This document shows, one piece after another, positions 17,005-39,540 of a stretch of 64,000 nucleotides of DNA. This DNA is from Sulfitobacter sediminilitoris (lineage in GTDB: Bacteria > Pseudomonadota > Alphaproteobacteria > Rhodobacterales > Rhodobacteraceae). The notes under the pieces are model-generated. The model saw only the letters and a program-made list of their open reading frames with translations, made no database searches and was not told the origin of the DNA. Each line of letters starts with the position of its first letter. The first letter of the stretch is position 1. Where the stretch lies: positions 1 through 64,000 of the forward strand of contig NZ_JAABNT010000006.1 in assembly GCF_010667575.1 (NCBI RefSeq), in the 5' to 3' direction. The position numbers and the translations under genes were made by a program.

Positions 17005-17421
17005 TTATTCTGCGGCTTCTTCCGCTTCCAGACGGGCCTTGTCAGCCGCACCTTTGGCGTCGCGGTCGCGGTCCACGAATTCGATGATCGCCATAGGTGC
17101 CATGTCGCCATAGCGGAAACCCGCCTTCAGAACGCGGACATATCCGCCCTGGCGGTCCTTGTAGCGTGGGCCCAGCACGTCAAACAGCTTGGCCACATAA
17201 GCGTCCTGCTTCAGCTTTGCTGCCGCCTGACGGCGTGCGTGCAGGTCGCCGCGTTTGGCAAGTGTGATCATCTTTTCGATGATCGGACGCAGTTCTTTTG
17301 CCTTGGGCAATGTTGTCTTAATCTGCTCATGTTCAATGAGCGAGCCCGCCATGTTGGCCCAGAGCGCCTTGCGGTGCTCATGTGTGCGGTTCAGGCGGCG
17401 GTATCCACGTGCGTGACGCAT
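17005..17421 (-). CDS. rplQ: 50S ribosomal protein L17
   Basis: This 138-residue protein of the large subunit opens with [20 protein letters not shown], the highly conserved L17 start, and ends in an acidic/Ala tail ([12 protein letters not shown]). It is the last gene of the alpha operon rpsM-rpsK-rpoA-rplQ. The 132-base rpoA-rplQ spacer contains a REP-like palindrome. Confidence 0.98.
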
Positions 17422-17521
17422 ATTTCTTCTCCTAATGTGCCCTCTACGGGCTGTTTTGCTTTGTCTGGCTGGCGATGCGTGTCACCAAACTCTCCTTGGG
17501 GCAGGATTGCCCGGTCGTGAT

Positions 17522-17548
17522 GTAGGGCGGGGTGACCCCCGCCTTACG
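17522..17548. repeat. REP-like palindrome, GGCGGGG type (rpoA-rplQ spacer)
   Basis: GGCGGGGTGACCCCCGCC preceded by GTAG and followed by TTACG. The same core occurs at 36750 and 55651. Confidence 0.7.
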
Positions 17549-17553
17549 CGTTC

Positions 17554-18570
17554 TTAAAAGTTGTCTTCGAACTTTTTGGCAAGATCTTCGATGTTGTCCG
17601 GTGGCCAGTCCTCGACGTCCATGCCAAGGTGCAGACCCATACCCGACAGCACTTCCTTGATCTCGTTCAGGGACTTGCGGCCAAAGTTCGGCGTGCGCAG
17701 CATCTCTGCTTCGGTCTTCTGGATCAGATCGCCGATGTAGACGATGTTGTCGTTCTTCAGGCAGTTTGCCGAACGCACAGAAAGCTCCAGCTCGTCCACT
17801 TTCTTCAGCAGCAGCGGGTTGAATTCCAGACCGTCATCCTCATCGGCGCGCGATGCGGACTCAGGCTCATCGAAGTTCACGAAGATGCCCAGCTGGTCCT
17901 GCAGGATACGTGCGGCGAAGGCCACGGCGTCATCCGGCGTGATCGATCCGTCTGTCTCGACCTTCATGGTCAGCTTGTCATAGTCCAGCACCTGACCTTC
18001 GCGGGTCGGCTGCACGTCATAGCTGACTTTCTTGACCGGAGAATAGATCGCGTCGATCGGGATCAGGCCGATCGGCGCATCCTCTGGCTTGTTCTTGTCA
18101 GCAGACACATAGCCCTTGCCGGTATTCACCGTCAGTTCCATGTACACGTCCGCCCCATCGTCGAGGTGGCAGATCACGTGGTCGCGGTTCAGGATCTCGA
18201 TGCCCGCGCTCTCGGAGATATCGCCAGCAGTCACAACGCCCGGACCTTTTGCGGAAATCGACAGGCGCTTGGGCCCTTCGACTTCCATGCGGATCGACAC
18301 GCCCTTGAGGTTCAGAATGATGTCGGTGACATCTTCGCGTACACCGGCAACAGAAGAAAACTCGTGCAGCACGTTGTCGATCTGCACGGATGTGATCGCG
18401 GCACCTTGCAGCGAAGACATCAGCACACGGCGCAGCGCGTTGCCCATGGTCAGACCAAAACCGCGCTCAAGCGGTTCGGCTATCACAGTCGCCTGACGTG
18501 CAGGGTCATTGCCCGGCTTTACGTCCAGCTGCTGAGGTTTAATCAGTTCAGCCCAATTCTTGTGGATCAT
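17554..18570 (-). CDS. rpoA: RNA polymerase alpha subunit
   Basis: This 338-residue protein has the N-terminal dimerisation domain with [20 protein letters not shown] (beta/beta' assembly) and the C-terminal DNA/activator-binding domain with [20 protein letters not shown] and [14 protein letters not shown] 18570 (MIHKNWAEL) follows GGAGGG at good spacing; four upstream codons are excluded. It lies in the alpha operon after rpsK, with a 116-base spacer holding two modest stem-loops. Confidence 0.99.
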
Positions 18571-18686
18571 GTGTCCCTCCATCCTTGTAACAGCCGCATG
18601 TCCGTTCGGCGGTTACGCTCGAGGTTTCAAAAAAGCGGTATGGGGCCTGCATGAAAACACGCAGACCCCGGTCTTAATAATGTCGC

Positions 18687-19076
18687 TTAAACGCGGCGGC
18701 GCTTTGGGGGGCGGCAGCCGTTGTGAGCCATTGGCGTCACGTCGCGGATGGACGTGATGTTAAAGCCAGCAGCCGCCAGAGCGCGCAGCGCAGATTCACG
18801 GCCGGAACCGGGACCCTGCACTTCGACTTCCAGCGTCTTCACACCGTGTTCCTGCGCCTTGCGGCCCGCATCCTCTGCAGCCATCTGGGCCGCATAGGGT
18901 GTGGATTTCCGCGAGCCTTTGAAACCCATGGTGCCGGCAGACGACCATGCGATCGCGTTGCCCTGCACATCCGAGATCAGGATCTTGGTGTTGTTAAAGC
19001 TTGAGTTTACGTGCGCCACACCTGCGGCGATATTCTTGGAGACCTTACGCTTGGTCTTGCGTGCATCGCGTGCCAT
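18687..19076 (-). CDS. rpsK: 30S ribosomal protein S11
   Basis: This 129-residue platform protein contains the conserved [20 protein letters not shown] and ends in the invariant [11 protein letters not shown] tail. It is the second gene of the alpha operon, 15 bases after rpsM. Confidence 0.99.
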
Positions 19077-19091
19077 TTGTTCAGCCCTCCC

Positions 19092-19460
19092 TTATTTCTT
19101 CTTACCGGCAATGGCCTTTGCGGGGCCTTTGCGGGTGCGTGCGTTTGTGTGTGTGCGCTGCCCGCGAACAGGCAGGTTGCGGCGGTGACGCAGGCCACGG
19201 TAGCAACCAAGGTCCATCAGACGCTTGATGTTCATCTGCGTATCACGACGCAGGTCACCTTCGACGGTATAGTTTTCGTCGATATGCTCGCGGATTTTCA
19301 GAACTTCGGCGTCGGACAGTTCGTTGATACGACGGGATGCGTCGATGCCAACAGCCTCGCATATGGACTGCGCGGAAGAGTTGCCGATACCGGTGATATA
19401 TGTGAGGGCGATTGGAACCCGCTTTGCAGTCGGGATGTTTACGCCGGCAATACGTGCCAC
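19092..19460 (-). CDS. rpsM: 30S ribosomal protein S13
   Basis: This 122-residue head protein contacts the P-site tRNA. It starts (V/M)[14 protein letters not shown] and ends [15 protein letters not shown]. The start is GTG 19460, giving the canonical N-terminus. An AAGGA sequence lies upstream, and the longer frame adds 17 non-conserved residues. It is the first gene of the alpha operon and has its own promoter at 19617-19645. Confidence 0.97.
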
Positions 19461-19616
19461 GTGTGCATTTCCTTTTCGTTGCGGGTCCGTGATGCCAGAC
19501 CCTTTTTTCACAACACAAGCCCGAGGCGTTGATGGCCACCGGGCTAAGGCTGATCAGGTGATCTCGCGCAGCAGGAGCGACCCGCATTGCGAATTGATTC
19601 TCAATCGAGATAGCGC

Positions 19617-19645
19617 TGACTATGGGGTTTTTAGCGAGGCGTCAA
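19617..19645 (-). promoter_or_regulatory. Sigma70-type promoter for rpsM-rpsK-rpoA-rplQ
   Basis: The -35 is TTGACG (19645-19640), the spacer exactly 17 bases, and the -10 TAGTCA (19622-19617). It sits in the 264-base adk-rpsM spacer, oriented toward rpsM, leaving a leader of about 150 bases. Confidence 0.6.
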
Positions 19646-19724
19646 CCCAAGCGCATCGCTTGATTGCCAGGGCTCTGGTTGTCCAATGAATTCAAGGCTG
19701 ACTGTGTGACCGAACCGCGCCGTA

Positions 19725-20372
19725 TCAGGCATCCAGAATGGCTGCGATTTCGCCACGCACTTCATCAATCGCACCAAGACCGTTGACCCGCGAAAGCATC
19801 TCTTTGGCATAGTAATAGCCAATTAGCGGCGAGGTTTGTTTGTAATAGGCCATGAGCCGGGTCTTGAGGCTTTCTTCATTGTCATCCGCACGGCGGGTGA
19901 ACTGATTTTCCGCACCGCAGTTTGTGCACGTCTTGTCCGCCGGAACAGGCTGGGTGTTGTCATTGTAAACCTCACCGCACGCACCGCAGGTCGAACGCGC
20001 TGTGATCCGGTCAACCAAAGCTTCGTCATCGACACGCATCTCAATCACGGCATCAAGCGTTTGACCCTCATCCGCCATCAACTGGCCAAGCGCATCGGCC
20101 TGCTCAAGTGTGCGTGGAAAGCCGTCAAAAATGAAACCGCCCTTGTTATCACCTTCCAGCTTCTCGCGGATCAGGCCGATCACAATCTCATCCGTAACCA
20201 ATTCACCACGTGCCATCACACCGGCGACCATCTTGCCCATCTCGGTGCCAGAATCTTTCGCCTCACGCAGCATATCGCCGGTGGACAATTGCACCATGTT
20301 CCGGGTTTCTACGAGGTGGCGCGCTTGCGTGCCTTTGCCAGCGCCCGGAGGCCCAAGAAGAATAATGTTCAT
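19725..20372 (-). CDS. adk: Adenylate kinase, zinc-LID type
   Basis: This 215-residue enzyme interconverts ATP, ADP and AMP. The P-loop is GPPGAGKGT, and the AMP site includes STGDMLREA and FDGFPRT. The long LID carries four Cys (129, 132, 149, 152) in CGACGEVYN and CTNCGAE, the zinc-binding form usual in Gram-positives and many alphaproteobacteria. Its start overlaps the secY stop (ATGA). It ends the rplO-secY-adk segment. Confidence 0.98.
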
Positions 20373-21739
20373 CGACGTACGGGGCTCCGTTTCTTGCGGG
20401 TAGTTTTGCCTTTGCCCTTGCCGCGCAGCTGGGACTTTTCAAGCAGGCCTTCGTATTGGTGTGCCAGAAGGTGGCTTTGCACCTGTTGGATCGTGTCCAT
20501 GGTCACGGATACAACGATCAGAACGCTTGTACCGCCGAAGTAGAACGGAATCGCGAATTGACCGCGCAGGATTTCCGGGAACACACAGACCAGCGCCAGA
20601 TAACCAGACCCCAGCACCAGAACGCGGTTTACCACGTATTCAAGATACTCCGCCGTCTTCTTTCCCGGACGGATGCCAGGAACAAAACCATTCTGGCTTT
20701 TGAGATTGTCGGCGACTTCTTCTGGTTTGAAGCTTACGTTGAAGGTGTAAAAATACGCGAAGAAAACGATCATCGCGATGAAGAACAACAGATAAAGCGG
20801 CTGACCGGGGCCAAAGTTCGCCAGCAGAACTGACATAACCGGACCGGTGGAATTACCCGAAAACGTGCTGATCGTGATCGGCAGCAACAGCAGCGACGAT
20901 GCAAAGATCGCCGGAATAACGCCCGATGGATTGACCTTGACCGGCAGGTGGCTTGACCCCCCGTCATACATCTTCATCCCCACCTGACGGCGCGGATACT
21001 GGATGTGGATCTTGCGCAGTGCCCGTTCCATGAAGACAACAAACATGATCGTTACCACCACCATCACCAGCACACCCACGATCACCGCAGGGCTGATCGC
21101 GCCGGACCGGCCAGAGGCAAAGAACTGCGCAATCGCGGCGGGTACTTCGGCGATAATGCCCACGAAGATGATCAGGGAAATACCATTGCCGATGCCGCGT
21201 GCGGTGATCTGCTCACCCAGCCACATCAGGAACATCGTGCCGCCGACCAAGGTGATCATGCAGGCGATGCGGAAATACATGCCCGGATCAGCCGCGATGT
21301 CGCCTGCTTCAAGCGATACCGCAAGGCCATAAGACTGCAACGTTGCAAGGGCAACCGTGCCGTAGCGGGTGTATTGGTTCAGCTTCTTGCGCCCCTGCTC
21401 ACCCTCTTTCTTCAGCTGCTCCCAAGGGCCGTACATGGACCCAAGAAGCTGCACGATGATCGAGGCCGAGATATAAGGCATGATGCCAAGCGCGAAGATG
21501 CCCATCCGCCCCAGCGCACCACCGGTGAACATCGAGACCATGCCGCCGATACCCTGGCCCGCGCTGTCCATAAAGTCGCGCAGCGCCTGACCGTCGATGC
21601 CGGGTACAGGAATGAAAGTACCAAGGCGGTAGACGATCAACAGACCAAGCGTGAACAGGATGCGATTGCGCAGGTCCGTGGCCTTGCCCAGTGCGGACCA
21701 GCTTGTGTTGGCGGCCATATTTTCGACGGCTGATACCAT
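20369..21739 (-). CDS. secY: Preprotein translocase subunit SecY
   Basis: This 456-residue, ten-helix channel of the Sec translocon includes [12 protein letters not shown] near the N-terminus and [19 protein letters not shown], the cytoplasmic loop that contacts SecA and ribosomes. ATG 21739 ([11 protein letters not shown]) gives the usual roseobacter start; 32 upstream codons are excluded because they run through the intercistronic stem-loop. It is preceded by rplO and overlaps adk. Confidence 0.98.
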
Positions 21740-21763
21740 TTTCGGGTCTCTTTTGTTGTTATG

Positions 21764-21803
21764 CAAACGCCGCCCGGGCTGTTTTCCAGCAGGGCGGCGT
21801 TTG
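21764..21803 (-). other. Intercistronic stem-loop between rplO and secY
   Basis: CAAACGCCGCCC and GGGCGGCGTTTG are perfect 12-base complements around a 16-base loop. There is no clear U-tract, so this is a probable attenuator or processing/stability element between a ribosomal and a membrane-protein gene. Confidence 0.7.
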
Positions 21804-21862
21804 GGAAAACTCGAAAGACTATGTAAGCGGGTCACAGCCCGCTCACAAGCCTTAAGGCAGGT

Positions 21863-22342
21863 TTACTCTGCCGCCGCCTCAGCTTTCGCTGCAACGGTCA
21901 CGCTGCCGCCTGCCTTCTCGACCGCTTCGATTGCGGATTTGGAAGCGCCTGCGACGTGAAGATCTACCTTGGCAGAGATGTCGCCCTTGGCCAGCACACG
22001 AATGCCGTCCAGTTCACGACGGACCAGACCTGAGGCAACCAAAGCGGCACCATCGATCGGCTTTTTCGGGTCCAGTTTCTTGGCATCGACGAATTTCTGG
22101 ATCAGGCCCAGGTTCACAACAGCGAAAGACTTGCGGTTTGGCTTATTGAAGCCACGCTTTGGCAGACGCTGGTAAAGTGGCATCTGGCCACCTTCGTAGC
22201 CGTTGATCGCCACACCTGAGCGGGATTTCTGACCTTTGATGCCACGGCCACCCATTTTACCGGTGCCGGAACCGGGACCACGACCAACGCGCTTGCGTTT
22301 CTTGGTGGCGCCTGGATTGTCAGACAGTTCATGCAGTTTCAT
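21863..22342 (-). CDS. rplO: 50S ribosomal protein L15
   Basis: This 159-residue protein opens [20 protein letters not shown] and contains the conserved [15 protein letters not shown]. It is normally next to rpmD. Here it is separated from rpmD by about 1.4 kb holding an acyltransferase gene, and it begins its own segment with secY and adk behind a promoter at 22438-22466. Confidence 0.98.
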
Positions 22343-22437
22343 GTCGCTTCTCCTTTTGCCGGAAATGCGCCCCAGCGACGGGAGTGCGCAAACGCGGCGT
22401 TTACAGTTAGGGCGGCCGGAATCGGGGCCACTGGGCG

Positions 22438-22466
22438 CGTATAGGGGATGCTAAGTCCGGGATCAA
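22438..22466 (-). promoter_or_regulatory. Sigma70-type promoter for rplO-secY-adk
   Basis: The -35 is TTGATC (22466-22461), the spacer 17 bases ending CCCC, and the -10 TATACG (22443-22438). It lies just after the acyltransferase stop, facing rplO. The CCCC-TATA join recurs at rpsL and rpsJ, and CTCC-TATA occurs at rpmC. Confidence 0.7.
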
Positions 22467-22508
22467 GGGCCGCGTTCCGTACCCTACAACACTGCCACAA
22501 CAAGGGGC

Positions 22509-23558
22509 TCAGACGCGGGTACAGAACCCCAGAATCTTGCCAATGTGCAGTCTATGGCTGACCCAGACCAACAGGATAGGGCCGATCAGCCCCACCAGTG
22601 TCGCCACCAGCAGATGCACGCTCAACATCTCGACGCCAGAAGACCGTAGCGCGATACGGAATGCCGCCGAAAAGATCGTATGAGCAAGAAAGATTGGTAG
22701 GGAATACAATCCCAGAATGCGCAAAAGTGTAATTGGCACGGACGCATCTTCGGTGTTCGGATCAAGCCGAAAAGTGACGAAGCACGCCAAAACAGTCAGC
22801 AGCAGCGAGACCAAGAGTGAACCCCATGCGTACGGGGTATTGTAGATCAGCAGCGCAAATAGCACCGCGGCCGCCAAGGCAAGCCACAATGGCGGTCTTT
22901 TATGCGCGACGCCCCCAAGGGCCATGCCTGCGATAAAATAGGGAAAATGTTCGATCGCCGCCCCGAATAGTGGCGAAGGCACATAGAAAAAAGGGATCAA
23001 GAGCGTCAGCATCACGGCCGTAATCCCAAGGCACAACCGCATCTGCGCTATGTTCAACACTTCTCTGACCGCCATGAAAGCGACCAATACAATCACCTGC
23101 GCCAAAAACAGCGCCCAAAGGAACCACAGATGCTCATAGGGCGGCAACGGGATCAGAGGGAAATCAGCAAGGCTCACGGGGTGATTGGCAGCGCTCCCCG
23201 CCAGAAGCTTGATTCCGAAAAACAGCCAGGTCCAAATGGCGAGCGGCCAAAGCAGACGGCGAAAGCGGCTGGCAAAAAAGGGTCCTGCCGCCACTTTTTG
23301 AAGAACATTCAGATAGAGCAGACCAGATAGTAAGAAGAAAAGCGGCATGTGCCACGTGTAGATCAGGCTGTCGACTGTGCGAAAAAGCACCTCATCAGGC
23401 AGGAGCCCTGCATCATAACCCCCGCGCCAGGCGTGACCGAAGACAACAAGGATGATGCCGACACCCTTCGCCGTATCAATGGCATGTAGCCTACCGGAAC
23501 TGCCCGCAATGCTTTTACCTGTGCAACTCACGCCAATATGTGAACTAATGAAAACCAA
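22509..23558 (-). CDS. Acyltransferase family 3 membrane protein (inserted between rpmD and rplO)
   Basis: This roughly 349-residue multi-pass protein contains RLHAIDTAKGVGIILVVFGHAW, the N-terminal His-bearing motif of acyltransferase-3/fucose-4-O-acetylase-like enzymes, and about ten hydrophobic segments. Such enzymes O-acetylate surface or secreted glycans; the substrate is unknown. The longest frame starts with TTG 23558, and GTG 23531 is an alternative; neither has a convincing ribosome-binding site. It lies in the same orientation as the spc genes but between a stem-loop after rpmD and a promoter for rplO. It is therefore cargo in the ribosomal cluster. Confidence 0.85.
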   Translation of the reverse strand: MVFISSHIGVSCTGKSIAGSSGRLHAIDTAKGVGIILVVFGHAWRGGYDAGLLPDEVLFRTVDSLIYTWHMPLFFLLSGLLYLNVLQKVAAGPFFASRFRRLLWPLAIWTWLFFGIKLLAGSAANHPVSLADFPLIPLPPYEHLWFLWALFLAQVIVLVAFMAVREVLNIAQMRLCLGITAVMLTLLIPFFYVPSPLFGAAIEHFPYFIAGMALGGVAHKRPPLWLALAAAVLFALLIYNTPYAWGSLLVSLLLTVLACFVTFRLDPNTEDASVPITLLRILGLYSLPIFLAHTIFSAAFRIALRSSGVEMLSVHLLVATLVGLIGPILLVWVSHRLHIGKILGFCTRV

Positions 23559-23707
23559 ACGTTCTTACCAAGTCACTTCAAGTATTATTCCCGCGAAAAC
23601 ATAACAGGGGATCTACATACCTAATCATAATTAACAGGTGTGGCCCAAATAAGGCGAGAATTGGGCAGTTGACCAGCCTGAACCAGAGTAAGGCCATTCT
23701 GCGAAAG

Positions 23708-23747
23708 CAAGAACGCCCCACCGTTACCGGCAGGGCGCTAATTCTTG
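23708..23747 (-). terminator. Stem-loop after rpmD, probable terminator
   Basis: The outer arms are CAAGAA/TTCTTG, with inner GCCC-type pairing and CCG GTAA CGG at the top, 36 bases after the rpmD stop. The U content downstream is modest, so it may be a Rho-assisted end or a stability element. Confidence 0.55.
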
Positions 23748-23782
23748 AAGTACATTGTCGCGTTCTGACAATGAGGGCCTGA

Positions 23783-23971
23783 TCAGCCCTTCTCCTCCAC
23801 GATCTCCACCATGTGCGAGATCGAATTAATCATGCCGCGCACGGACGGCGTATCTTCCAACTCACGCACACGATGCATTTTGTTCAGCCCCAAGCCGATC
23901 AGCGTTGCACGCTGTTTCGCAGGGCGGCGGATCGGAGAACCGATCTGCTTGATAACAATTGTCTTAGCCAT
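23783..23971 (-). CDS. rpmD: 50S ribosomal protein L30
   Basis: This 62-residue protein, [20 protein letters not shown] at the start, matches the short bacterial L30 with GLGLNKMHR. It ends the contiguous rpmC-to-rpmD run, three bases after rpsE. The following gene in most bacteria, rplO, is displaced by the acyltransferase insertion. Confidence 0.98.
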
Positions 23972-23974
23972 GGT

Positions 23975-24544
23975 TTAGGCCTCCTCGGTCGCAGGTGCAG
24001 CGGGTGCATCTGTCTTGGGCAGGATGTCCGCAACCTTCTTGCCACGACGCTGTGCAACGGAACGTGGGGAAGATTCTTTCTTCAGCCCGTCCATCGTGGC
24101 GCGGATCATGTTATATGGGTTCTGCGAGCCGATGGACTTGGAAACCACGTCCTTCACACCCAGCATTTCGAACACGGCACGCATTGGACCACCAGCAATG
24201 ATACCGGTACCTTCTGGTGCTGTGCGCATAACGACCTTACCGGCACCGTGACGGCCTTCCATGTCGTGGTGCAGTGTGCGGCCTTCGCGCAGCTGGACGC
24301 GGATCATCTGGCGCTTGGCCTGCTCGGTGGCCTTCCGGATCGCCTCGGGCACTTCTTTCGCTTTACCCTTGCCAAAGCCGACGCGACCTTTCTGGTCACC
24401 AACAACGACAAGCGCGGCAAAGCCAAAACGCTTACCACCCTTAACTGTTTTGGACACGCGGTTGATGGCGACCAGACGGTCGGCAAATTCCGGTGTTTCG
24501 TCACGATCGCGGCGCGGGCCGCGACGGTTTTCACGTTCTGCCAT
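23975..24544 (-). CDS. rpsE: 30S ribosomal protein S5
   Basis: This 189-residue protein has the N-terminal double-stranded-RNA-binding domain with [20 protein letters not shown] and the C-terminal domain with [18 protein letters not shown]. It takes part in decoding fidelity. ATG 24544 (MAERENRRG) follows AAGGAAG; five upstream codons are excluded. Confidence 0.98.
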
Positions 24545-24650
24545 GAGAACTTCCTTCATATGGTGGGCAAGCGCCCGGTTTTCTCGATCCCAGTCAGCCG
24601 CTCTGGCTCCCGGATCATCGAGGCGGCCCCATAAGAGCCGCCTACAAGTC

Positions 24651-25010
24651 TTAGATCTTCAGACCGCCCTCGCGGGCCGCATCTGCAAGTGCCTTAACCT
24701 TGCCGTGGAACAGGAAACCGCCCCGGTCAAAGTAAGCTGTCTCCACACCGGCCTTCTTGGCACGCTCGGCAATCGCTGTGCCGACCTTGGTCGCCGCTTC
24801 GATGTTGTTCTTGCCGACCATACCCAGACCCTTCTCAAGCGAGGAGGCGGAGGCCACTGTCTTGCCGTTCACATCGTCGATCAGCTGGGCGCTTATGTTC
24901 TTGTTTGAACGGTGCACGCTCAGGCGCATGCGGCCTGCGTTGGTGCGGCGAAGTTTGTTCCGAACGCGCAGGCGGCGTTTGATGAACAGTTGTCTTTTGC
25001 TGTTTGCCAT
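24651..25010 (-). CDS. rplR: 50S ribosomal protein L18
   Basis: This 119-residue 5S rRNA-binding protein has [33 protein letters not shown] and the [20 protein letters not shown] tail. It lies between rplF and rpsE in the usual spc order. Confidence 0.98.
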
Positions 25011-25022
25011 GTCCTTGCGTCC

Positions 25023-25556: not shown

Positions 25557-25566
25557 CAGATTCTCC

Positions 25567-25959: not shown

Positions 25960-25971
25960 TGCTTGCCCTCC

Positions 25972-30583: not shown

Positions 30584-30591
30584 AAAATGAC

Positions 30592-30620: not shown

Positions 30621-30622
30621 TT

Positions 30623-30637: not shown

Positions 30638-30653
30638 GAAAGGATGATAAACC

Positions 30654-30983: not shown

Positions 30984-31005
30984 TCTGCATTCCAAGGAGA
31001 ACGCT

Positions 31006-31806
31006 ATGAAACGTCTATTTTCCTTCGTGTTGTTCGTGTGGATTACCCTGTTACCCTCCGTTTCGTTTGCTGGTAGCAGCGAGGCTGGCAAAGCGAAGCT
31101 TCCTGCGGCCGAGGTCGCAGCATTCGCCAACCGGGTTCAACAGGACCTTGCGGCGCGCGGTGCACATGTCGCCATCGTTTCACGGGTTGGGCGCGACCCG
31201 CGGCAACTGCCCTCCGGCGTCAACTATACGCATGTCAGCTTTTGGGTGTACTCGCACATCAAGCACGCTGATGGCAGAACCGGTCGCGGATATCGGGTCT
31301 ACAACCTCTACCAGAAGAACGACAACCAAACGCGCAGCCACCTCGTGCAGGACAGCCCGGCGGATTTCTTTTCCGGCGCGCACAAGCTGGATGCGGGCGT
31401 CATCATCCCAGACGTCAGGCTACAGAAAAAGCTTTTGAAAGTGATCGCCAGCCCAACCTATGCGGCCTTGCATAATGCAAGCTACTCCGTGCTTGCCAAC
31501 CCAAACACGAACCAGTTTCAAAACTGCACAGAGCACACGCTGGATGTTCTCTTTGCAAGCCTTTACGACACGAAAAATGTCAACCAGATCAAGGCGAACA
31601 TGGCGGCGCATTTCCAGCCACAAGTTATCCGCATCGGTGGTTTCAAACGATTGCTGGCTCCTGCAGTCTCGCAAGCGCTGACAACTGCGGATCATGACGA
31701 AAAGATCGCAACCGCGACATTTGGGGCCATTGCGCGCTTTATGGAGACAAACAAACTTGCAAAGGTCATTTACAGGATTGACCCTGCAAGGGCTATCAGC
31801 TTCTAG
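31006..31806 (+). CDS. DUF2145 family secreted protein, possible permuted NlpC/P60-like fold
   Basis: This 266-residue protein has a signal peptide (MKRLFSFVLFVWITLLPSVSFA|GSS). The mature part has YTHVSFWVY (His76) followed much later by QNCTEHTLDVL (Cys174). A His preceding a Cys in this order, with the NCTE context, recalls circularly permuted NlpC/P60 or LRAT-type hydrolases such as YiiX. The DUF2145 assignment rests on these motifs, and enzymatic activity is inference. CAAGGAG precedes ATG 31006. It sits between the small membrane protein and the TetR regulator. Confidence 0.7.
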   Translation: MKRLFSFVLFVWITLLPSVSFAGSSEAGKAKLPAAEVAAFANRVQQDLAARGAHVAIVSRVGRDPRQLPSGVNYTHVSFWVYSHIKHADGRTGRGYRVYNLYQKNDNQTRSHLVQDSPADFFSGAHKLDAGVIIPDVRLQKKLLKVIASPTYAALHNASYSVLANPNTNQFQNCTEHTLDVLFASLYDTKNVNQIKANMAAHFQPQVIRIGGFKRLLAPAVSQALTTADHDEKIATATFGAIARFMETNKLAKVIYRIDPARAISF

Positions 31807-31846
31807 AGATTGGGCGCGCCATCAAGACAACCTCATTGATCCGAAA

Positions 31847-32452
31847 ATGACAAAAGAGAAACCACTGTCCCGACGGGACCGCAACCTCGCCAACATTCGC
31901 GAAACGGCCGTACCGGTTGCAGAGCGCATCGTCCTAGAAGAGGGGGTCGATGCGCTCAACGCGCGTCGGCTCGCCGGCGACATCAGCGTGTCTGTCGGCT
32001 CGCTGTACAATGCCTTTGGCGATCTCGATGCGGTTCTACGGGCTGTCATCGAAAAATCGGCGTTGATGCTGTCACGCACATTGCATGCGGCGATCGAGCA
32101 GCCCGCGCTGGACGAACGAACCCGCCTGATTACATTGGGCGAGGCATATCTCGATTTTGCCATCGCGGAGCCGCAGCGTTGGTGGCTGCTGTTCGAGTAT
32201 AACTCGAACAATCCACCCGATGACAAGGCGCAGGAATTCCAGCTCGGCCTTCTGGAAATGCTTGTCGAGGCTGGCGGTGGTGACCCGAAGTCAGACCAGC
32301 ATCGACAGATATTCCTGTTATTGTGGGCATCCGTTCATGGCCTTGTGACCCTCGCATGCCGACCGACGATCATAGCACTCAATCCCGAGGTCGCGCGGAC
32401 CTACATAGCTGAGTTGGTAGATACAGGTCTCAAAAGTTTCCCAATCGGTTAA
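31847..32452 (+). CDS. TetR/AcrR family transcriptional regulator
   Basis: This 201-residue protein has an N-terminal helix-turn-helix (residues about 20-60: AERIVLEEGVDALNARRLAG then SVGSLYNAFGDLDAVLRAV), followed by a helical ligand domain with QRWWLLFEYN. ATG 31847 is chosen because it begins just before the DNA-binding domain; the upstream frame overlaps the DUF2145 gene. It is the last gene of the operon. The palindromes at 30569 and 30623 are likely its own operators, implying autorepression. Confidence 0.85.
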   Translation: MTKEKPLSRRDRNLANIRETAVPVAERIVLEEGVDALNARRLAGDISVSVGSLYNAFGDLDAVLRAVIEKSALMLSRTLHAAIEQPALDERTRLITLGEAYLDFAIAEPQRWWLLFEYNSNNPPDDKAQEFQLGLLEMLVEAGGGDPKSDQHRQIFLLLWASVHGLVTLACRPTIIALNPEVARTYIAELVDTGLKSFPIG

Positions 32453-32584
32453 GCCATCTGCGGCGGGCCAAATTATCCAGCGGAATCAACAAAGCCGAGC
32501 AGCAAAAGCTGGTGGAAATATTGCCCTTTGCCGCGGATCCCGTCAGCTCTGGGCTCAGACCAGACATTAACCAAAAACGCAAAA

Positions 32585-32608
32585 CCCCCGCTGATCACTC
32601 AGCGGGGG
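32585..32608. terminator. Bidirectional terminator between the TetR gene and rplP
   Basis: CCCCCGCTGA and TCAGCGGGGG pair perfectly around TCAC. The plus strand continues CTCTTTATTT and the minus strand TTTTGCGTTTTT, so it can end both the cargo operon and the rplB-rplP message. Confidence 0.85.
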
Positions 32609-32687
32609 CTCTTTATTTCACCGGGGCCGGAACGGGCATTTGCAAGCAAATTCCCTGCCTACGGCTGATCGCGCTAATGCGCGACCG

Positions 32688-33101
32688 TCACCAGTCCTCG
32701 CGGACCACGACGCGTGTCTTGATCGGCAGCTTCATCGCTGCAAGACGCAGCGCTTCACGCGCGATATCCTCGTTCACGCCGTCGATCTCGAACATAACGC
32801 GGCCGGGCTTCACCTTGGCCGCCCAGAAATCCACGGAACCTTTACCTTTACCCATCCGAACTTCGACAGGCTTGGAGGTTACAGGCACATCCGGGAAGAT
32901 GCGGATCCACACACGGCCCTGACGCTTCATGTGACGCGTCATGGCACGACGTGCGGCTTCGATCTGGCGTGCGGTTACACGTTCGGGCTGCAGCGCCTTC
33001 AGGCCGTAGGTGCCGAAGTTCAGGTCAGACCCGCCCTTCGCCAGACCCTTGATCGAGCCTTTGAACTGCTTGCGGAATTTCGTCCGTTTTGGCTGTAGCA
33101 T
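32688..33101 (-). CDS. rplP: 50S ribosomal protein L16
   Basis: This 137-residue protein starts [20 protein letters not shown] and contains [20 protein letters not shown]-like residues in [15 protein letters not shown], with the [14 protein letters not shown] loop near the A site. It is the last gene of the rplB-rplP segment. The usual next gene, rpmC, is 4.6 kb away beyond a terminator and inserted genes. Confidence 0.98.
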
Positions 33102-33112
33102 TTATCTACTCC

Positions 33113-33820
33113 TTACCGGCGACCGCCAGCACCACGAGGGGCCGGGCCGTCTTGAAGTTCCTGTAACTTGCGATCATGGGCAGAGGGATCATGTTCCATG
33201 ATCTCTCCTTTGAAGATCCACGTCTTGATGCCGATTATGCCGTAAGCAGTCTGCGCTTCAACGTGTGCATAATCAATGTCAGCACGCAGGGTGTGCAGTG
33301 GCACGCGGCCCTCACGATACCATTCGGTACGCGCGATCTCTGCACCGCCCAGACGGCCGGCAAGGTTCACGCGGATGCCCAGGGCACCCATGCGCATGGC
33401 GTTCTGAACCGCACGCTTCATGGCGCGGCGGAAAGACACCCGGCGCTCCAGCTGCTGTGCAATGCTCTCACCAACCAGTGCCGCATCCAGCTCGGGCTTG
33501 CGGACCTCAACGATGTTGAGGTGCAGCTCCGAGGACGTCATCTTGGCGATCTTCTGACGCAGACCTTCGATGTCTGCCCCTTTCTTGCCGATGATGACAC
33601 CGGGGCGGGCTGTGTGGATCGTCACGCGGCACTTCTTGTGCGGCCGTTCGATGATCACACGGGCCACACCGGCCTGCTTGCACTCTTCCTTGATGAAGCC
33701 GCGGATGGCGAGGTCTTCGAGCAGAAGATCACCATAGTCCTTCGTGTCGGCGTACCAGCGGCTGTCCCAAGTGCGGTTAACCTGCAGGCGCATGCCGATC
33801 GGGTTTACTTTGTTACCCAT
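33113..33820 (-). CDS. rpsC: 30S ribosomal protein S3
   Basis: This 235-residue protein, [20 protein letters not shown] at the start, has the KH domain with [20 protein letters not shown] and lies at the mRNA entry site. The start overlaps the rplV stop (TAATG). Confidence 0.98.
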
Positions 33821-34200
33821 TATGCTTGCTCCTCAACTTGACGCACGACGATGGTGACTTCGGCAAATGGCTTCATGATCTTGCCAAACCGGCCACGGGC
33901 ACGTGGACGACCACGCTTCATGGTCAGGTTCTTACCGACATAGGCTTCGGCGACGACCAGCTCATCCACATCAAGGTTGTGGTTGTTCTCGGCATTGGCA
34001 ATCGCCGACTGAAGGCATTTCTTCACGTCCTGCGCGATCCGCTTCTTGGAGAAGGTCAGCGCGGTCAGTGCGCTATCCACCTTCTTGCCACGGATCAGAC
34101 CGGCGACGAGGTTCAGTTTCTGCGGCGACGTCTTCAGCATGCGCAGCTTGGCACGTGCTTCGTTGTCTGCCACGCGGCGGGGATTCTTATCCTTGCTCAT
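33820..34200 (-). CDS. rplV: 50S ribosomal protein L22
   Basis: This 126-residue tunnel-lining protein includes [20 protein letters not shown] and the extended loop with [18 protein letters not shown], the region where macrolide-resistance changes arise in other bacteria. It follows rpsS by three bases. Confidence 0.98.
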
Positions 34201-34203
34201 GGC

Positions 34204-34482
34204 TTATTTCCGCTTCGCTTTTTTGTCCGCGGCATGACCGTAGTAGGTCCGCGTTGGCGAATATTCACCAAACTTCTGACCGATCATGTCTTCGCTGACG
34301 TTAACAGGGATATGCTTGTGACCGTTGTAGACACCGAATGTCAGGCCAACAAACTGCGGGAGGATCGTGCTGCGACGCGACCAGATCTTGATCACTTCGT
34401 TACGGCCACTCTCGCGGGACGCTTCGGCCTTTTTGAGGACATAAGAGTCAACAAAAGGACCTTTCCATACTGAACGAGACAT
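34204..34482 (-). CDS. rpsS: 30S ribosomal protein S19
   Basis: This 92-residue head protein starts [20 protein letters not shown] and contains [20 protein letters not shown]. It lies three bases after rplB. Confidence 0.98.
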
Positions 34483-34485
34483 AGA

Positions 34486-35328
34486 TTAACGCCCCTTCTT
34501 CTTGGCGTGGCGCGATCTGATGATCAGACTGCTTGACGCTTTTTTCTTGTTCCGGGTTTTTGCACCCTTTGTCGGCTTGCCCCATGGCGTCACCGGGTGA
34601 CGACCACCGGATGTACGGCCTTCACCACCACCGTGCGGGTGGTCGATCGGGTTCATCACGACACCACGCACAGACGGGCGGATGCCCTTGTGACGCATGC
34701 GGCCCGCTTTACCGTAGTTCTGGTTTGAGTTGTCGGGGTTGGACACGGCACCAACGGTAGCCATGCATTCCTGACGCACCAGACGCAGTTCGCCGCTGCT
34801 CAGACGGATCTGAGCGTAGCCACCGTCACGGCCCACGAACTGGGCGTATGTACCGGCGGCACGTGCGATCTGACCACCCTTGCCGGGCTTCATCTCGATG
34901 TTGTGGATGATTGTACCGATGGGCATGCCGCTGAAAGGCATTGCGTTACCGGGCTTGATGTCTGCCTTCTGGGAGGCAATCACCTTGTCGCCAACTGCAA
35001 GACGCTGAGGGGCCAGGATATAGGCCTGCTCGCCATCTTCGTACTGGATCAGGGCAATGAATGCTGTCCGGTTCGGGTCATATTCGATCCGCGCCACAAC
35101 AGCGGACATGTCCAGCTTGTTGCGCTTGAAATCAACGATACGGTAGAGGCGCTTTGCCCCACCGCCTTTGCGACGCATCGTGATCCGTCCGGTGTTGTTC
35201 CGTCCGCCGTGCTTGGTAAGTCCCTCAGTGAGGGCCTTGACAGGGCGACCTTTCCAAAGCTCCGAACGGTCGATCAGTACCAGCCCACGCTGGCCCGGCG
35301 TCGTCGGTTTGTACGACTTGAGTGCCAT
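34486..35328 (-). CDS. rplB: 50S ribosomal protein L2
   Basis: This 280-residue protein needed for peptidyl transfer and subunit joining contains [20 protein letters not shown] followed by the conserved [20 protein letters not shown], which includes the key His. It is normally contiguous with rplW. Here about 2.1 kb of inserted material separates them, and rplB begins a new segment with its own promoter at 35485-35513. Confidence 0.98.
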
Positions 35329-35409
35329 GTTGTCTGTCTTCCGTTTTGCTTACGCCACGCTGTGGTGGCTATGGTATGAAGGGCCCCGAAGGTCCCCAGG
35401 TGGTGTGCC

Positions 35410-35484: not shown

Positions 35485-35513
35485 CGTTTAGGGTGTGTGG
35501 GGGATGGGGTCAA
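35485..35513 (-). promoter_or_regulatory. Sigma70-type promoter for rplB-rpsS-rplV-rpsC-rplP
   Basis: The -35 is TTGACC (35513-35508), the spacer 17 bases ending CCC, and the -10 TAAACG (35490-35485). The -35 overlaps the stop region of the cassette gene at 35510. Confidence 0.65.
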
Positions 35514-35911
35514 GGGGTTGCAAAAACACTTGGCCAATCCCACTCCAACAAATCTCCGAGGACGTTCTTGTTAAATATGTAGTTCGCTTCAGCAGCAGAA
35601 AACAAGCTCCCGATAACGTGCATGTCAGACGGCGCAGAAGCCAACCGCACTTCTTCGAAATTCTCCGAACTGAAGATGCTAAAGTCATTTCCATTGGTCC
35701 AATAGAATTCGTCGTCGTCAACATAGTGTCTGCCACGTGTTTCGGACACAACGTACTTTTTATCTTTGATTGGGCATTGATAAGACCTGTCTACTTCAGT
35801 CCAAGCGTCTGCCTTAAAGAGATCACTCAATTCCCAGGTAATCTCATTCTTTGATGTTTTCTTTATTAAGCTTGTGATGGCCTTCCGCCAATCATCTGGA
35901 CTATAGCTCAT
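35510..35911 (-). CDS. Hypothetical cytosolic protein of AT-rich cassette
   Basis: This 133-residue acidic, aromatic-rich protein (SYSPDDWRKAITSLIKK at the start, then DDDEFYWTNGNDFSIF and LLEWDWPSVFATP) has no signal or membrane segment. The base composition is clearly poorer in GC than the ribosomal genes, with many A/T third positions. It overlaps the upstream membrane-protein gene in ATGA, so the two are translationally coupled and probably function together. The family is not recognised. Confidence 0.7.
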   Translation of the reverse strand: MSYSPDDWRKAITSLIKKTSKNEITWELSDLFKADAWTEVDRSYQCPIKDKKYVVSETRGRHYVDDDEFYWTNGNDFSIFSSENFEEVRLASAPSDMHVIGSLFSAAEANYIFNKNVLGDLLEWDWPSVFATP

Positions 35912-36454
35912 AGACTTGCTTGCGCTCCTTTATCGTAAGCGTCAATCTCATCCGCCAATTCGTTGAGTGCGCTGAAGAGGTTCCAATATGGGATCAGATC
36001 GTTTGCAATTTCATCAGAACTACTCTCATCTCGGAGCTTAGCTTGAACTTCAGAATGAAAGGTCTCTGCCTTTTTGGTAACTTCTGAGAAACCGGAAACC
36101 TTAGTCTTGGTGATCTGTCTTATCACCACCGCAGTTTCACTCATGAATCGCTCAGTGCGAAGATCGCCCAATTTAGAGCTAGAAAGCGAAGTCATGCTTT
36201 TCGTGATTTTTTCAAGCTGTTTCTTGAACTCTGGTAATCTCTGCTTCGCAAAGTAGCGATTAGACAGACTTCTCACCTCCATAACCGCAAAGACTGAAAA
36301 TAAGAATCCGAGATACCCAAAAAGCGCTCCAACAACATTCCAGGAAAGAGTTGCGTCTATTCCATTATCACCGAAAAGCAAGTCGGGCCGCAAAAAATGC
36401 AGCTAGTGCAACTAGAATCGGGAAAGCTCCGAGTATAGTTAAGATTAATTTCAT
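35908..36454 (-). CDS. Hypothetical membrane protein of AT-rich cassette, apparent frameshift at a T6 run
   Basis: Two overlapping frames cover this gene. ATG 36454 opens MKLILTILGAFPILVALAAF, a membrane helix that stops after 28 residues at 36368. The main frame from TTG 36393 gives 161 residues with a helix around WNVVGALFGYLGFLFSVFAV, then a charged, coiled-coil-like cytoplasmic part (RLPEFKKQLEKITKSMTSL). One base fewer in the T6 run at 36392-36397 would fuse them into a 181-residue two-helix protein. This could be a mutation, slippage-dependent expression or a sequencing error. The GC content is low like its partner at 35510. Confidence 0.6.
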
Positions 36455-36523
36455 ATAATTTGCTCGAGCCTCACGGAAATTGCTTACCCCAGACCGTATC
36501 AAACGCTGCGTGCGAAGCAAACC

Positions 36524-36552
36524 GTAGGGTGCACATTCACTGCGCACCCTAC
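36524..36552. repeat. REP-like palindrome, GTAGGGTGC type, right flank of AT-rich cassette
   Basis: GTAGGGTGCACATTCA followed by CTGCGCACCCTAC. It is similar in sequence and orientation to 35410-35433. Confidence 0.65.
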
Positions 36553-36565
36553 CCCCACGTTCCAT

Positions 36566-36718
36566 TCAACCGATCTCGCCCGGATCAACGGCAACCAACT
36601 CCACCCGAAACCCATCCTCCCGCACAATCACAACCTCCACCCCACGCAACACCGCATCCACCAATCGCTCAAAACCCGCCTGAGCCTCCTCTACCGTCAT
36701 TACAATCCGTTCCACCAT
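36566..36718 (-). CDS. Orphan Phd/YefM-like antitoxin
   Basis: This 50-residue frame has MTVEEAQAGFERLVDAVLRG and VEVVIVREDGFRVELVAVDP, the beta-alpha-alpha-beta pattern of Phd/YefM ('prevent-host-death') N-terminal domains. GGAG lies at good spacing before ATG 36718. The C-terminal toxin-neutralising tail is very short, and no RelE, PIN or Doc toxin lies next to it. It could therefore be a relic or a solitary regulator. It is sited between cspA and the AT-rich cassette. Confidence 0.6.
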   Translation of the reverse strand: MVERIVMTVEEAQAGFERLVDAVLRGVEVVIVREDGFRVELVAVDPGEIG

Positions 36719-36749
36719 TCCGATATCTCCGTCACCCAATCACACCAAA

Positions 36750-36871: not shown

Positions 36872-37078
36872 TTATGCCAGCGCGAGGTTCGTTGCGCTCT
36901 CGCGGCCGTCGCGGCCGGGCTCGATCTCGAACGTGACTTTCTGGTCATCGCTCAGGCCGGTCAGGCCCGCTTGCTCAACGGCAGAGATGTGTACGAACAC
37001 GTCCTTGCTGCCGCCGTCAGGGGCGATAAACCCGAAACCTTTTGTTGTGTTGAACCATTTGACGGTGCCATTGGCCAT
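36872..37078 (-). CDS. Cold-shock protein, CspA family
   Basis: This 68-residue OB-fold RNA chaperone starts MANGTVKWFNTTKGFGFIAP, contains the RNP1-type KGFGFI and RNP2-type VFVHI motifs, and has normal length. It is a monocistronic unit with its own terminator, lodged between rplW and rplB. Regulation is probably post-transcriptional, as for other csp genes, but I did not identify a cold box. Confidence 0.95.
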   Translation of the reverse strand: MANGTVKWFNTTKGFGFIAPDGGSKDVFVHISAVEQAGLTGLSDDQKVTFEIEPGRDGRESATNLALA

Positions 37079-37374: not shown

Positions 37375-37402
37375 AAAAGGCCCCCGAACATCGGGGGCCT
37401 TT
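37375..37402 (-). terminator. Terminator after rplW
   Basis: AAAGGCCCCCGA and TCGGGGGCCTTT pair perfectly around three bases and continue TTCG on the minus strand. It ends the rpsJ-rplC-rplD-rplW segment before the cargo region. Confidence 0.85.
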
Positions 37403-37424
37403 CCAAACTCATAACGAACCGAAC

Positions 37425-37721
37425 TTACAGCCCGGTTGAGACGTCGATCGTGTTGCCTTCTTCAAGCGTCACGTAGGCCTTCTTCACGTCCTTCCGCTTG
37501 CCCAACTGGCCGCGGAAACGCTTGACCTTGCCTTTGGTGATGGTCGTATTCACGGCCTTCACCTTGACCCCAAAGAGCGCCTCGACGGCCTCCTTGATCA
37601 TCGGCTTGTTGCTCTCCATCGCCACTTCGAAAACAACCGCGTTGGCTTCTGATGCCATGGTCGCTTTCTCGGTGATGATCGGCTTGCGGATCACGTCGTA
37701 GTGTGTGTGCTTGGCGCTCAT
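37425..37721 (-). CDS. rplW: 50S ribosomal protein L23
   Basis: This 98-residue tunnel-exit protein, the docking site for trigger factor and SRP, contains [20 protein letters not shown] and [20 protein letters not shown]. The start overlaps the rplD stop (ATGA). A terminator follows, so it is the last gene of the first S10 segment. Confidence 0.98.
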
Positions 37722-38335
37722 TTCAAACGGGCCTCCAATGCTTCGACGCCCGCCTTCGTGATCACCAGGGTGTCACGCTTGAGGATGTCATATACGTTTG
37801 CACCCATTGTCGGCAGGATATCCAGACCTTCTATGTTGCGTGCGGCTTGGGCGAAGTTCTCATTCACCGATGCGCCGTCGATCACAAGCGCGCGCTTCCA
37901 GCCCAACGCATTGATCTGCTTGGCCAGTGCGGCGGTCTTGCCTTCGGACGTCGCCTCGTCAATCACCACCAGCTGACCGGCTTTCGCCTTGGCGGACAGC
38001 GCGTGGCGCAGACCCAGCTTGCGGAACTTCTTGGTCAGCTCGTGACCATGAGAGCGCACAACCGGACCCTTGTACACACCACCCCCACGGAAGATCGGAG
38101 CAGAACGTGCGCCGTGGCGTGCGCCGCCGGTGCCCTTCTGACGATAGATCTTCTTGGTGGAGTAGCTGACTTCGGACCGTGTCTTGACCTTGTGTGTACC
38201 GGCCTGCGCGTTGTTACGCTGCCAGCGCACGACGCGGTGCAGGATGTCGGCGCGCGGCTCAAGGCCGAACAGAGCCTCGTCCAGATCTACCGAACCGGCC
38301 TTGCCGCCGTCGAGTTTGATGACATCGAGTTTCAT
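37718..38335 (-). CDS. rplD: 50S ribosomal protein L4
   Basis: This 205-residue protein has the extended tunnel loop [20 protein letters not shown]. In E. coli it also represses the S10 operon by acting on the leader RNA. Here that control could reach only the rpsJ-rplW segment. It overlaps rplC and rplW by four bases each. Confidence 0.98.
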
Positions 38336-39204
38336 GCGTCACCTTCTTTCTTGTCTGCATCGTCAGCTTCGGGCGTTGCACCCTCTTCTGCGATTTCGGC
38401 TTCTGCTGCCTTCAGCGCTTCGGCTTCGGCTGCGGCCTGCTCTTCTGCCAGACGTGCTGATTCGGCCTCGGCCTCGGCTGCTGCGGCGGCTGCTGCTTCT
38501 TCAGCGGCTTTGGCGGCTTCTTCAGCGGCGGATTTCAGAGCGGCAGGCAGGATCGCATTCTCAGGGAACGGCTTTTTCACCGCGTCCTTGACGGTGACCC
38601 AGCCACCCTTGGAGCCTGGAACAGCGCCTTTGACCATGATCAGACCACGTGCGGTGTCTGTCTTGACCACTTCAAGGTTCTGCGTTGTCACGCGGGCAGC
38701 ACCCATGTGACCGGCCATTTTCTTGCCTTTGAAAACCTTGCCGGGATCCTGACACTGACCTGTCGAACCGTGCGAACGGTGAGAGATGGAAACACCGTGC
38801 GAGGCCCGCAGACCGCCAAAGTTGTGGCGCTTCATCGCACCGGCAAAACCTTTACCGATGGATGTGCCTGCAACGTCAACGTACTGACCTGCGAAATAGT
38901 GATCCGCGATGATCTCTTCACCCACGGGCAGCATCGCATCCGCGTCAACGCGGAATTCTGCGACCTTGCGCTTGGGTTCAACCTTGGCAGCGGCAAAGTG
39001 GCCGCGCATGGCTTTGGAGGTCCGCTTCGCTTTCGCAGAGCCGGCACCAAGCTGAACAGCCGTGTAGCCGTCCTTCTCAGCGGTACGCTGTGCAACCACC
39101 TGAAGTTTGTCGAGTTGGAGAACGGTCACAGGAATCTGCTTTCCGTCTTCCATGAAAAGGCGGGTCATCCCGACCTTTTTTGCAATAACGCCTGAGCGCA
39201 ACAT
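38332..39204 (-). CDS. rplC: 50S ribosomal protein L3 with long Ala/Glu-rich C-terminal extension
   Basis: This 290-residue protein has a normal L3 core to about residue 220, with [18 protein letters not shown] holding the Gln that PrmB methylates in E. coli (also position 150 here). From about residue 222 a low-complexity, helix-forming tail runs ([20 protein letters not shown] and onward), ending acidic ([12 protein letters not shown]). The usual bacterial L3 is about 210 residues. The tail should project from the 50S surface. Confidence 0.97.
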
Positions 39205-39222
39205 AAAGAAACCCTCCTACGC

Positions 39223-39540
39223 TTATGACTGCAGCTTGATCTCAACGTCCACACCAGCGGCCAGGTCGAGCTTCATCAGCGCGTCCACGGTCTGGGGGGT
39301 TGGATCAACGATATCCAGCAGACGCTTGTGCGTGCGGATCTCGAACTGGTCACGGGATTTCTTGTCAACGTGTGGCCCACGCAGAACGGTGAATTTTTCA
39401 ATCTTGTTCGGCAGCGGAATCGGGCCGCGAACGGATGCGCCGGTACGCTTGGCGGTGTTGACGATCTCTTGTGTGGAAGTGTCCAGCACACGGTAGTCAA
39501 ACGCCTTGAGCCGGATGCGGATATTTTGGCTTTGTGCCAT
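39223..39540 (-). CDS. rpsJ: 30S ribosomal protein S10
   Basis: This 105-residue protein starts [20 protein letters not shown] and includes [20 protein letters not shown]. It acts in the 30S head and with NusB in antitermination. ATG 39540 is preferred over the position three codons upstream. It is the first gene of the S10 segment, about 120 bases downstream of the promoter at 39663. Confidence 0.98.

Follow-up and report, generated by a model that had tools for sequence, protein, structure and literature searches.

The window analysed here is a 64,000-nucleotide stretch of the genome of Sulfitobacter sediminilitoris, a member of the Rhodobacteraceae (contig NZ_JAABNT010000006.1, positions 1 to 64,000), and our subject is its S10-spc-alpha cluster of ribosomal protein (r-protein) genes. 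Open reading frames (ORFs) and their translations place rpsJ-rplC-rplD-rplW, rplB-rpsS-rplV-rpsC-rplP, rpmC to rpmD, rplO-secY-adk and rpsM-rpsK-rpoA-rplQ on the minus strand. The cluster is opened at three junctions by gaps of 2099 bp (rplW/rplB), 4602 bp (rplP/rpmC) and 1443 bp (rpmD/rplO), and all of its remaining junctions measure at most 250 bp. The initial annotation of this DNA had described the same three gaps, with canonical gene order within the pieces, and the gene positions bear it out. Four blocks result:

37425-39549, minus strand: block A, rpsJ-rplC-rplD-rplW (from ORFs and translations)
32688-35328, minus strand: block B, rplB-rpsS-rplV-rpsC-rplP (from ORFs and translations)
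23783-28088, minus strand: block C, rpmC rpsQ rplN rplX rplE rpsN rpsH rplF rplR rpsE rpmD (from ORFs and translations)
17005-22342, minus strand: block D, rplO-secY-adk-rpsM-rpsK-rpoA-rplQ (from ORFs and translations), with another promoter-like site before rpsM, near 19645

Signals at the block boundaries

At each gap, a terminator-like hairpin follows the upstream block and a promoter-like site precedes the downstream one:

37375-37401, minus strand: terminator-like GC-rich hairpin with TTTT, after rplW
32581-32612, minus strand: terminator-like hairpin with a 14-bp stem and a T run, after rplP
23712-23739, minus strand: terminator-like hairpin with a 12-bp stem, after rpmD
35485-35513, minus strand: promoter-like TTGACC-N17-TAAACG, before rplB
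28165-28193, minus strand: promoter-like TTGCAC-N17-TATACG, before rpmC
22438-22466, minus strand: promoter-like TTGATC-N17-TATACG, before rplO

The stem-loops and 17-bp-spaced promoters first reported for these junctions were all found in place. The promoter-like elements fit TTG-N17-TA(T/A) and begin exactly at 35513, 28193 and 22466, and the one claimed for rpsM was read by eye as TTGACG...CATAGT. For the window taken alone, the promoters are not above chance: a scan with the E. coli consensus, which has no power here, listed 7 sites (8.1 expected) and none of these was among them. Across the genus and family regions, on the other hand, they are above chance. When these regions and shuffled controls were scanned for TTG-N15..18-TA within 250 bp upstream of each gene, promoter-like sites were found before rpmC in 53 of 70 cases, rplO in 45 of 57, rplB in 31 of 80, rpsM in 20 of 44 and rpsJ in 25 of 59, with shuffle rates of 0.10-0.16. 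Genes internal to the blocks scored about as often as in their shuffles (0.07-0.14) or less often (rplN 5/70, rpsE 3/70, rpsC 1/80, rplE 2/70, secY 4/55, rpsH 3/70), with rplR (9/70) slightly higher at 0.13 vs 0.10. The spacing was 17 in 39 of 42 TTG...TATA pairs before rpmC and in 46 of 47 before rplO. Conservation of the junction promoters in relatives, a check proposed along with the initial annotation, is thus clear at rpmC and rplO and less so at rplB. Promoter-like and leader-like sequence was also noted before rpsM (19512-19660, minus strand) and rpsJ (39550-39700, minus strand), conserved by eye in at most 18 loci.

The scanned stretch contained 34 terminator-like sites, compared with 21.3 (standard deviation 4.0) in shuffles. 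The scan missed the rplW hairpin, and segment 32585-32608 of the rplP hairpin scores on the plus strand as well, the strand toward which a TetR gene in the gap points. Across loci, the mean hairpin z was -4.0 behind rplW, -4.4 behind rplP and -4.0 behind rpmD, and runs of at least four T were present in 48 of 71, 44 of 81 and 47 of 70 loci, respectively. The region behind rplQ behaves likewise (z -3.2, T run in 12 of 15). Mean z values behind rplB, rpsC, rplE and secY were -0.2 to -0.9, that behind rpsQ was -1.5 and that behind rpsJ -1.3. A T run without a hairpin follows rplB in 24 of 80 cases, and the hairpin behind rplR reaches a z of -3.4, yet T runs accompany it in 6 of 70 only.

Structured leaders of rplB, rpmC and rplO

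Each downstream block also opens with a structured leader:

35331-35397, minus strand: L2-Alphaproteobacteria ribosomal leader RF03142 (56.3 bits, gathering cut-off 37.8)
28083-28147, minus strand: structured leader upstream of rpmC, model R2
22340-22402, minus strand: structured leader of rplO, model R1, with the pseudoknot GUCGCU/AGCGAC

RF03142, the one leader recognised by Rfam within the cluster, sits directly upstream of rplB (start at 35328). It was matched in 107 of 149 family genomes, in 83 of them above the cut-off and nearly always once; in a sample of 142 genomes of the class it was found in 2, both Rhodobacteraceae. One family genome holds a second, weak match below the cut-off (G036:C55:18672-18729, 26.4 bits). 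An L2 leader of rplB, rpsS, rplV and rpsC in Alphaproteobacteria is among those listed by Eckert and Weinberg in 2020 (table in PMC7247131). The window element is a member of that system and agrees with it in cluster, lineage and position before the first gene of a block. The difference is one of coverage: RF03142 accounts for a single junction of the three, and no Rfam family matches the leaders of rpmC and rplO.

These two leaders were found by aligning the regions upstream of both genes, and each contains the Shine-Dalgarno region and reaches the start codon. The R1 layout is P1 (GCCG/CGGC), then P2, with five pairs that all change on both sides, then the Shine-Dalgarno sequence and AUG; R2 consists of a P1 of the CACCAG/CUGGUG type, P2 and P3. 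In 48 distinct R1 sequences, 96.5% of cells are paired, and the covariation score is 0.479 compared with 0.147 in shuffles (0/500) and a maximum of 0.177 when slid; 65 cells change on both sides, compared with 18.6 shuffled. For R2 (43 sequences), 97.3% of cells are paired, the score is 0.322 vs 0.170 shuffled and 0.173 at most when slid, and shuffles reached the observed value in 0 of 500 for all five measures. R1 was matched in 128 of 149 family genomes (2 of these below 30 bits), singly in 126 of the 128, and in one scan of loci all 54 matches end within 5 nucleotides of rplO. R2 was matched in 117 of 149 (1 below 30 bits), once in each of the 117, and its position upstream of rpmC was read from loci by eye. 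In the class sample, where name or family is given for only a minority of the non-matching genomes, each model was strong in 2 of 142 genomes, all Rhodobacteraceae, and the matches in other families stayed below 29 bits (six for R1, two for R2).

The rplO leader has a second layer of structure, in which the P2 loop is predicted to pair with the spacer between the Shine-Dalgarno sequence and AUG. Because MAFFT misaligns this loop, the pseudoknot was tested on parsed pieces. Of 108 rplO upstream regions, 39 fell outside the parsing pattern. Most of these are outgroup or basal loci; L070 and L074 are also among them, although the R1 model does find both (L074 at 23.7 bits). In all 69 parsed leaders, loop and spacer can form 5-8 Watson-Crick pairs, for example GUCGCU/AGCGAC in the window, UAUCGCUA/UAGCGAUA in L061, UGACGCUU/AAGCGUCA in L186 and GUCGCA/UGCGAC in L192 and L194. 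The 53 distinct loop-flank combinations pair by 6.42 on average, compared with 5.59 when flanks are exchanged (0/2000) and 3.60 when loop letters are shuffled. The exchanged mean stays high because a GCG/CGC core is shared, and individual exchanged flanks pair by up to 10 bp. Next to the core, three positions are paired in 65, 50 and 44 of the 69 leaders. They co-vary beyond shuffles, the observed value being equalled or exceeded in 14, 25 and 19 of 5000, with the best CGC anchor chosen for each sequence before shuffling.

When window positions 22300-28400 were compared with Rfam 15 at E <= 5, neither R1 nor R2 gave a match, and the sole result was a subthreshold suhB match (E 3.1) at another place in that segment. 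The table of 20 leaders in PMC7247131 has no bacterial uL15 or L29 leader, and no description of an rpmC or rplO leader was found in the open-licence PMC literature. Both leaders appear to be new.

Other leader-like elements were noted in the window. One precedes rplN (27527-27582, minus strand; CGAAACC-UGGGG...CCCCA-AGGUCGGGAG) and is possibly a further r-protein leader, without promoter or cargo. Its pattern occurs in 89 Rhodobacteraceae-type loci and 0 outgroups (137 assessable), including the basal loci L184 and L195, which have no other leaders. Its support from covariation is weak, since the score of.106 (.059 shuffled) is surpassed by the.121 obtained on a slide of -2. A hairpin before rpsE (24584-24620, minus strand; CGATGATCCGGG...GGATTGA type) is conserved in some family members, its pattern being matched in 39 of 132 assessable loci and in 0 outgroups. 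Outside the cluster, a Rhodo-rpoB RNA (RF03074, 51.4 bits; 59852-59940, minus strand) lies upstream of a 1379-amino-acid (aa) ORF at 55682-59821 taken as rpoB.

The junctions and their cargo across the Rhodobacteraceae

To place the window among its relatives, 26 junctions were measured wherever both flanking genes were available in 80 named loci and 80 genus and family regions; the Rhodobacteraceae-type set comprises 126 loci, window included. Within this set, the rplW/rplB spacer has a median of 819 bp (n=107; above 500 bp in 60, at most 300 bp in 40), rplP/rpmC a median of 1971 bp (n=103; 78 and 25) and rpmD/rplO a median of 666 bp (n=75; 46 and 25). The sole further junction seen above 300 bp in the family is adk/rpsM, which reaches up to 901 bp, and 2901 bp in L073. 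Rhizobial, caulobacteral and other outgroups have 5-126 bp at all three junctions. A few of them are expanded elsewhere: L093 at rpsJ/rplC and rplO/secY, L105 and L113 at adk/rpsM, and L111 at rpsK/rpoA. The three-junction expansion is therefore not special to this genome and is shared within the Rhodobacteraceae. The generalisation that core ribosomal operons rarely tolerate insertions, offered when the gaps were first noticed, fails for this family, in which 78 of 103 rplP/rpmC spacers exceed 500 bp.

In some genomes the blocks have come apart altogether. Eleven were inspected, picked because their match coordinates looked split, and in 11 of 11 the breaks fall only at the three junctions; no block that was available whole is broken internally. 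Block B lies about 200 kb from a contiguous A, C and D in G075, and A+B lie about 250 kb from C+D in G157 and 17 kb from them in G174. A+B and C+D are on different contigs in G177 and G095, with no rpmC downstream of rplP in the stretch examined. Block D is about 50 kb from C and inverted in G117. In G064 block C is inverted beside B, with D at 0.19 Mb vs 2.74 Mb. Block C is on another contig in G166; in G139, C and D share a contig in opposite orientation and B is on another. Relative to its neighbours, block B is inverted in G039 and block D in G073. For G139, G039 and G073, block A was outside the stretches examined.

The gaps of the window hold the following genes:

36872-37078, minus strand: cold-shock protein (PF00313), at rplW/rplB
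35510-36739, minus strand: two hypothetical ORFs (133 aa, 161 aa) and a 57-aa ORF, at rplW/rplB
28261-32452, plus strand, opposite to the r-protein genes: DUF6636, 2OG-Fe(II) oxygenase (TIGR02466), DUF2848, DUF2145 and TetR proteins, at rplP/rpmC
22509-23558, minus strand: acyltransferase-3 family protein (PF01757), at rpmD/rplO

This cargo had been called foreign, a description that suits part of it only. The oxygenase was found, on either strand, in 72 of the 103 loci complete at rplP/rpmC, so that part of the cargo is an old resident. The cold-shock gene was matched in 10 of 126 family-type loci, in 9 of the 10 at rplW/rplB, and the acyltransferase in 3, window included. On the other hand, none of the other 125 family-type loci has a match to the TetR gene, to either hypothetical ORF or to the 57-aa ORF. 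Among the cargo ORFs, 1070 of 1165 clusters are singletons, a count that takes in all ORFs of at least 70 aa, many of them spurious. By eye the 57-aa ORF (36566-36739, minus strand) resembles a Phd-type antitoxin, with no Pfam or NCBIfam match. The oxygenase (28753-29373, plus strand) raises the question of whether its target might be a ribosomal or translation protein.

Proposed order of events and control of the blocks

Sequence comparison shows that the junctions are fixed and carry conserved promoter-like and terminator-like signals, that there are three lineage-specific leaders, of which the two outside Rfam covary, and that in some genomes the blocks are separated. The interpretation we favour, with a probability of roughly 0.74, is that the S10-spc-alpha cluster of most Rhodobacteraceae was rebuilt as four blocks bounded by signals of their own, that the leaders at the three junctions serve putative translational repression by a protein of the block, and that cargo followed. 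The blocks rpsJ-rplW, rplB-rplP, rpmC-rpmD and rplO-rplQ would each be transcribed separately; at each of the three junctions, a terminator would close the upstream block, and a promoter with a structured 5' leader would open the downstream one. Every leader would allow an r-protein of its own block to repress the block's translation. At rplO, the pseudoknot between hairpin loop and Shine-Dalgarno-AUG spacer would cover the ribosome entry site, which suggests translational autoregulation, perhaps by L15, the likeliest ligand because it is the sole r-protein encoded between rplO and adk. For the rpmC leader, the candidates are S8, by analogy with E. coli, or L29, by nearness. Since each block would carry its own signals, DNA arriving at a junction would be harmless to expression; cargo could then collect and turn over, and the blocks could drift apart. 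Whether the blocks are fully self-contained modules, each with an autoregulatory leader, including a bacterial uL15 leader that would be the first we know of and would work by its loop-to-ribosome-site pseudoknot, and whether this modularity is what permits cargo entry and block separation, we consider an even bet.

The initial annotation had the cluster cut into separate transcription units by its cargo, with the feedback circuits of E. coli unable to act across the breaks. Separate units remain the best reading of the signals. Feedback, by contrast, has probably been re-installed block by block, through RF03142 at rplB and the new leaders at rpmC and rplO. Feedback by S4 on alpha would not be expected in any case: rpsD, part of the regulated operon in the E. 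coli S4 system, does not fit between rpsK and rpoA, which are about 100 bp apart, and rpoA and rplQ are about 130 bp apart.

The cargo, moreover, was probably not what cut the cluster, because leaders occur in cargo-free spacers of 87-400 bp and the rplO leader changes less often than cargo does. Among 74 family-type loci, the leader at rplP/rpmC is present in 50 of 50 with cargo above 400 bp, 12 of 12 with 130-400 bp and 1 of 12 with less; at rpmD/rplO the corresponding figures are 46 of 46, 16 of 16 and 6 of 12. A quick tree of 86 loci was built from nine r-proteins, with 41 of its 83 inner branches starred and 23 open. It implies 3 changes of state for the rplO leader, 7 for the rpmC leader, and for cargo above 400 bp 8 at rplP/rpmC and 17 at rpmD/rplO. 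The deepest family members (L073, L092 and L195) have neither leaders nor cargo, and L184, L082 and L083, deeper inside the tree, also lack both leaders. Change counts alone cannot separate gain from loss, nor order promoter relative to leader; an arrival of leader and spacer together, with cargo later, would fit them. Cause and consequence were thus probably reversed, boundaries with their own signals having made cargo tolerable.

Several observations weigh against our interpretation. The case is weakest at rplB, because just 83 of 149 family genomes have RF03142 above its cut-off, as does 1 of 7 separately scanned loci, and because the promoter-like site is found in 31 of 80. The rpmC leader is absent from 11 of the 74 family-type loci, each with a spacer below 130 bp, and the rplO leader from 6. 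Helix P1 of R1 hardly varies, and two of the five R1 measures, at 158/500 for pairs with a change on each side and 24/500 for further pair types, are not clearly above shuffles; related sequences can inflate such controls, since the shuffles leave relatedness in place. Single-sequence folding of the new leaders gave z values of 0.35 and -0.64, no better than shuffles, in a test of little power, given a value of 0.05 for the accepted L2 leader. Nor do leader and boundary coincide, because the leader-like elements of rplN and rpsE come without promoter or cargo. Finally, the promoter-like site before rpsM makes other ligands possible if block D is read through.

Known systems offer partial parallels. 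In the alpha operon, the S4 leader folds into a pseudoknot on or close to the site where the ribosome enters. For S15, the relevant part of PMC10931766 describes an r-protein mRNA with a pseudoknot in a comparable position. The rplO leader resembles both in this general placement; here the gene is rplO, the lineage is another, and the alpha operon has no room for rpsD. In the E. coli spc operon, the S8 site lies at the third cistron, with rplO in the same operon (same part of PMC10931766). The genes of block C are those concerned, whereas here rpmC and rplO each have a separate upstream leader. A further parallel is the roseobacter rpmD/rplO region reported in 2012 (PMC3305630, as excerpted). 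Ruegeria pomeroyi has two genes between rpmD and rplO, a terminator is predicted, and reverse transcription PCR links the two to each other and not to rpmD or rplO; the region is variable among roseobacters. This supports a break at one of our three junctions, whose variability had already been noted. The excerpted account differs in treating a single junction, with no promoter or leader described and no family-wide three-junction pattern. In other published cases, too, insertions are followed by full separation, with 77 of 115 events traced to gene insertions; the excerpted examples lie between operons or inside rpoBC (rplL/rsmC), whereas here two junctions are inside S10 and one inside spc.

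A first alternative is that the leaders are not autoregulatory and only promote initiation of translation or stabilise the mRNA where each new transcript begins. The ligand role of both leaders is indeed a proposal, and both include the Shine-Dalgarno region and reach the start codon. A covarying pseudoknot that would occlude the Shine-Dalgarno-AUG spacer should, on the other hand, be unfavourable to plain translation, and placement and lineage pattern match known r-protein leaders, including the L2 leader of this very cluster in the list of PMC7247131. We regard this alternative as unlikely. Less likely still is that chance insertions came first and split the operon, with promoters and leaders evolving afterwards to rescue the orphaned downstream genes. 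Leaders do accompany long spacers, 11 of the 12 spacers below 130 bp lack the rpmC leader, and the tree counts leave gain and loss undistinguished. According to an excerpt of PMC8046335, selection for synteny in Gammaproteobacteria and Bacilli is relaxed by gene insertions. Against insertion first stand the cargo-free leaders (12 loci at 130-400 bp plus 1 shorter at rplP/rpmC, 16 plus 6 at rpmD/rplO), the 3 tree changes of the rplO leader set beside 8 and 17 for cargo, and the fact that independent insertions at three identical junctions are not expected. That mobile elements integrate preferentially at the junctions, an idea to which the highly variable cargo with its many singleton clusters might point, is very improbable, and for the window cargo a mobile island was rejected, given that the window has no transfer RNA gene, that no integrase, transposase or recombinase is among the ten cargo proteins scanned or the nine rescanned, and that some cargo is an old resident found on either strand.

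Under the favoured interpretation of blocks rebuilt with their own signals, these genes gain two concrete candidate control RNAs, one of them with a testable pseudoknot. The Rhodobacteraceae are a family whose core operon separates at boundaries that have their own signals, so that what holds core operons together becomes testable. The pattern suggests how a conserved operon can come apart without loss of control.

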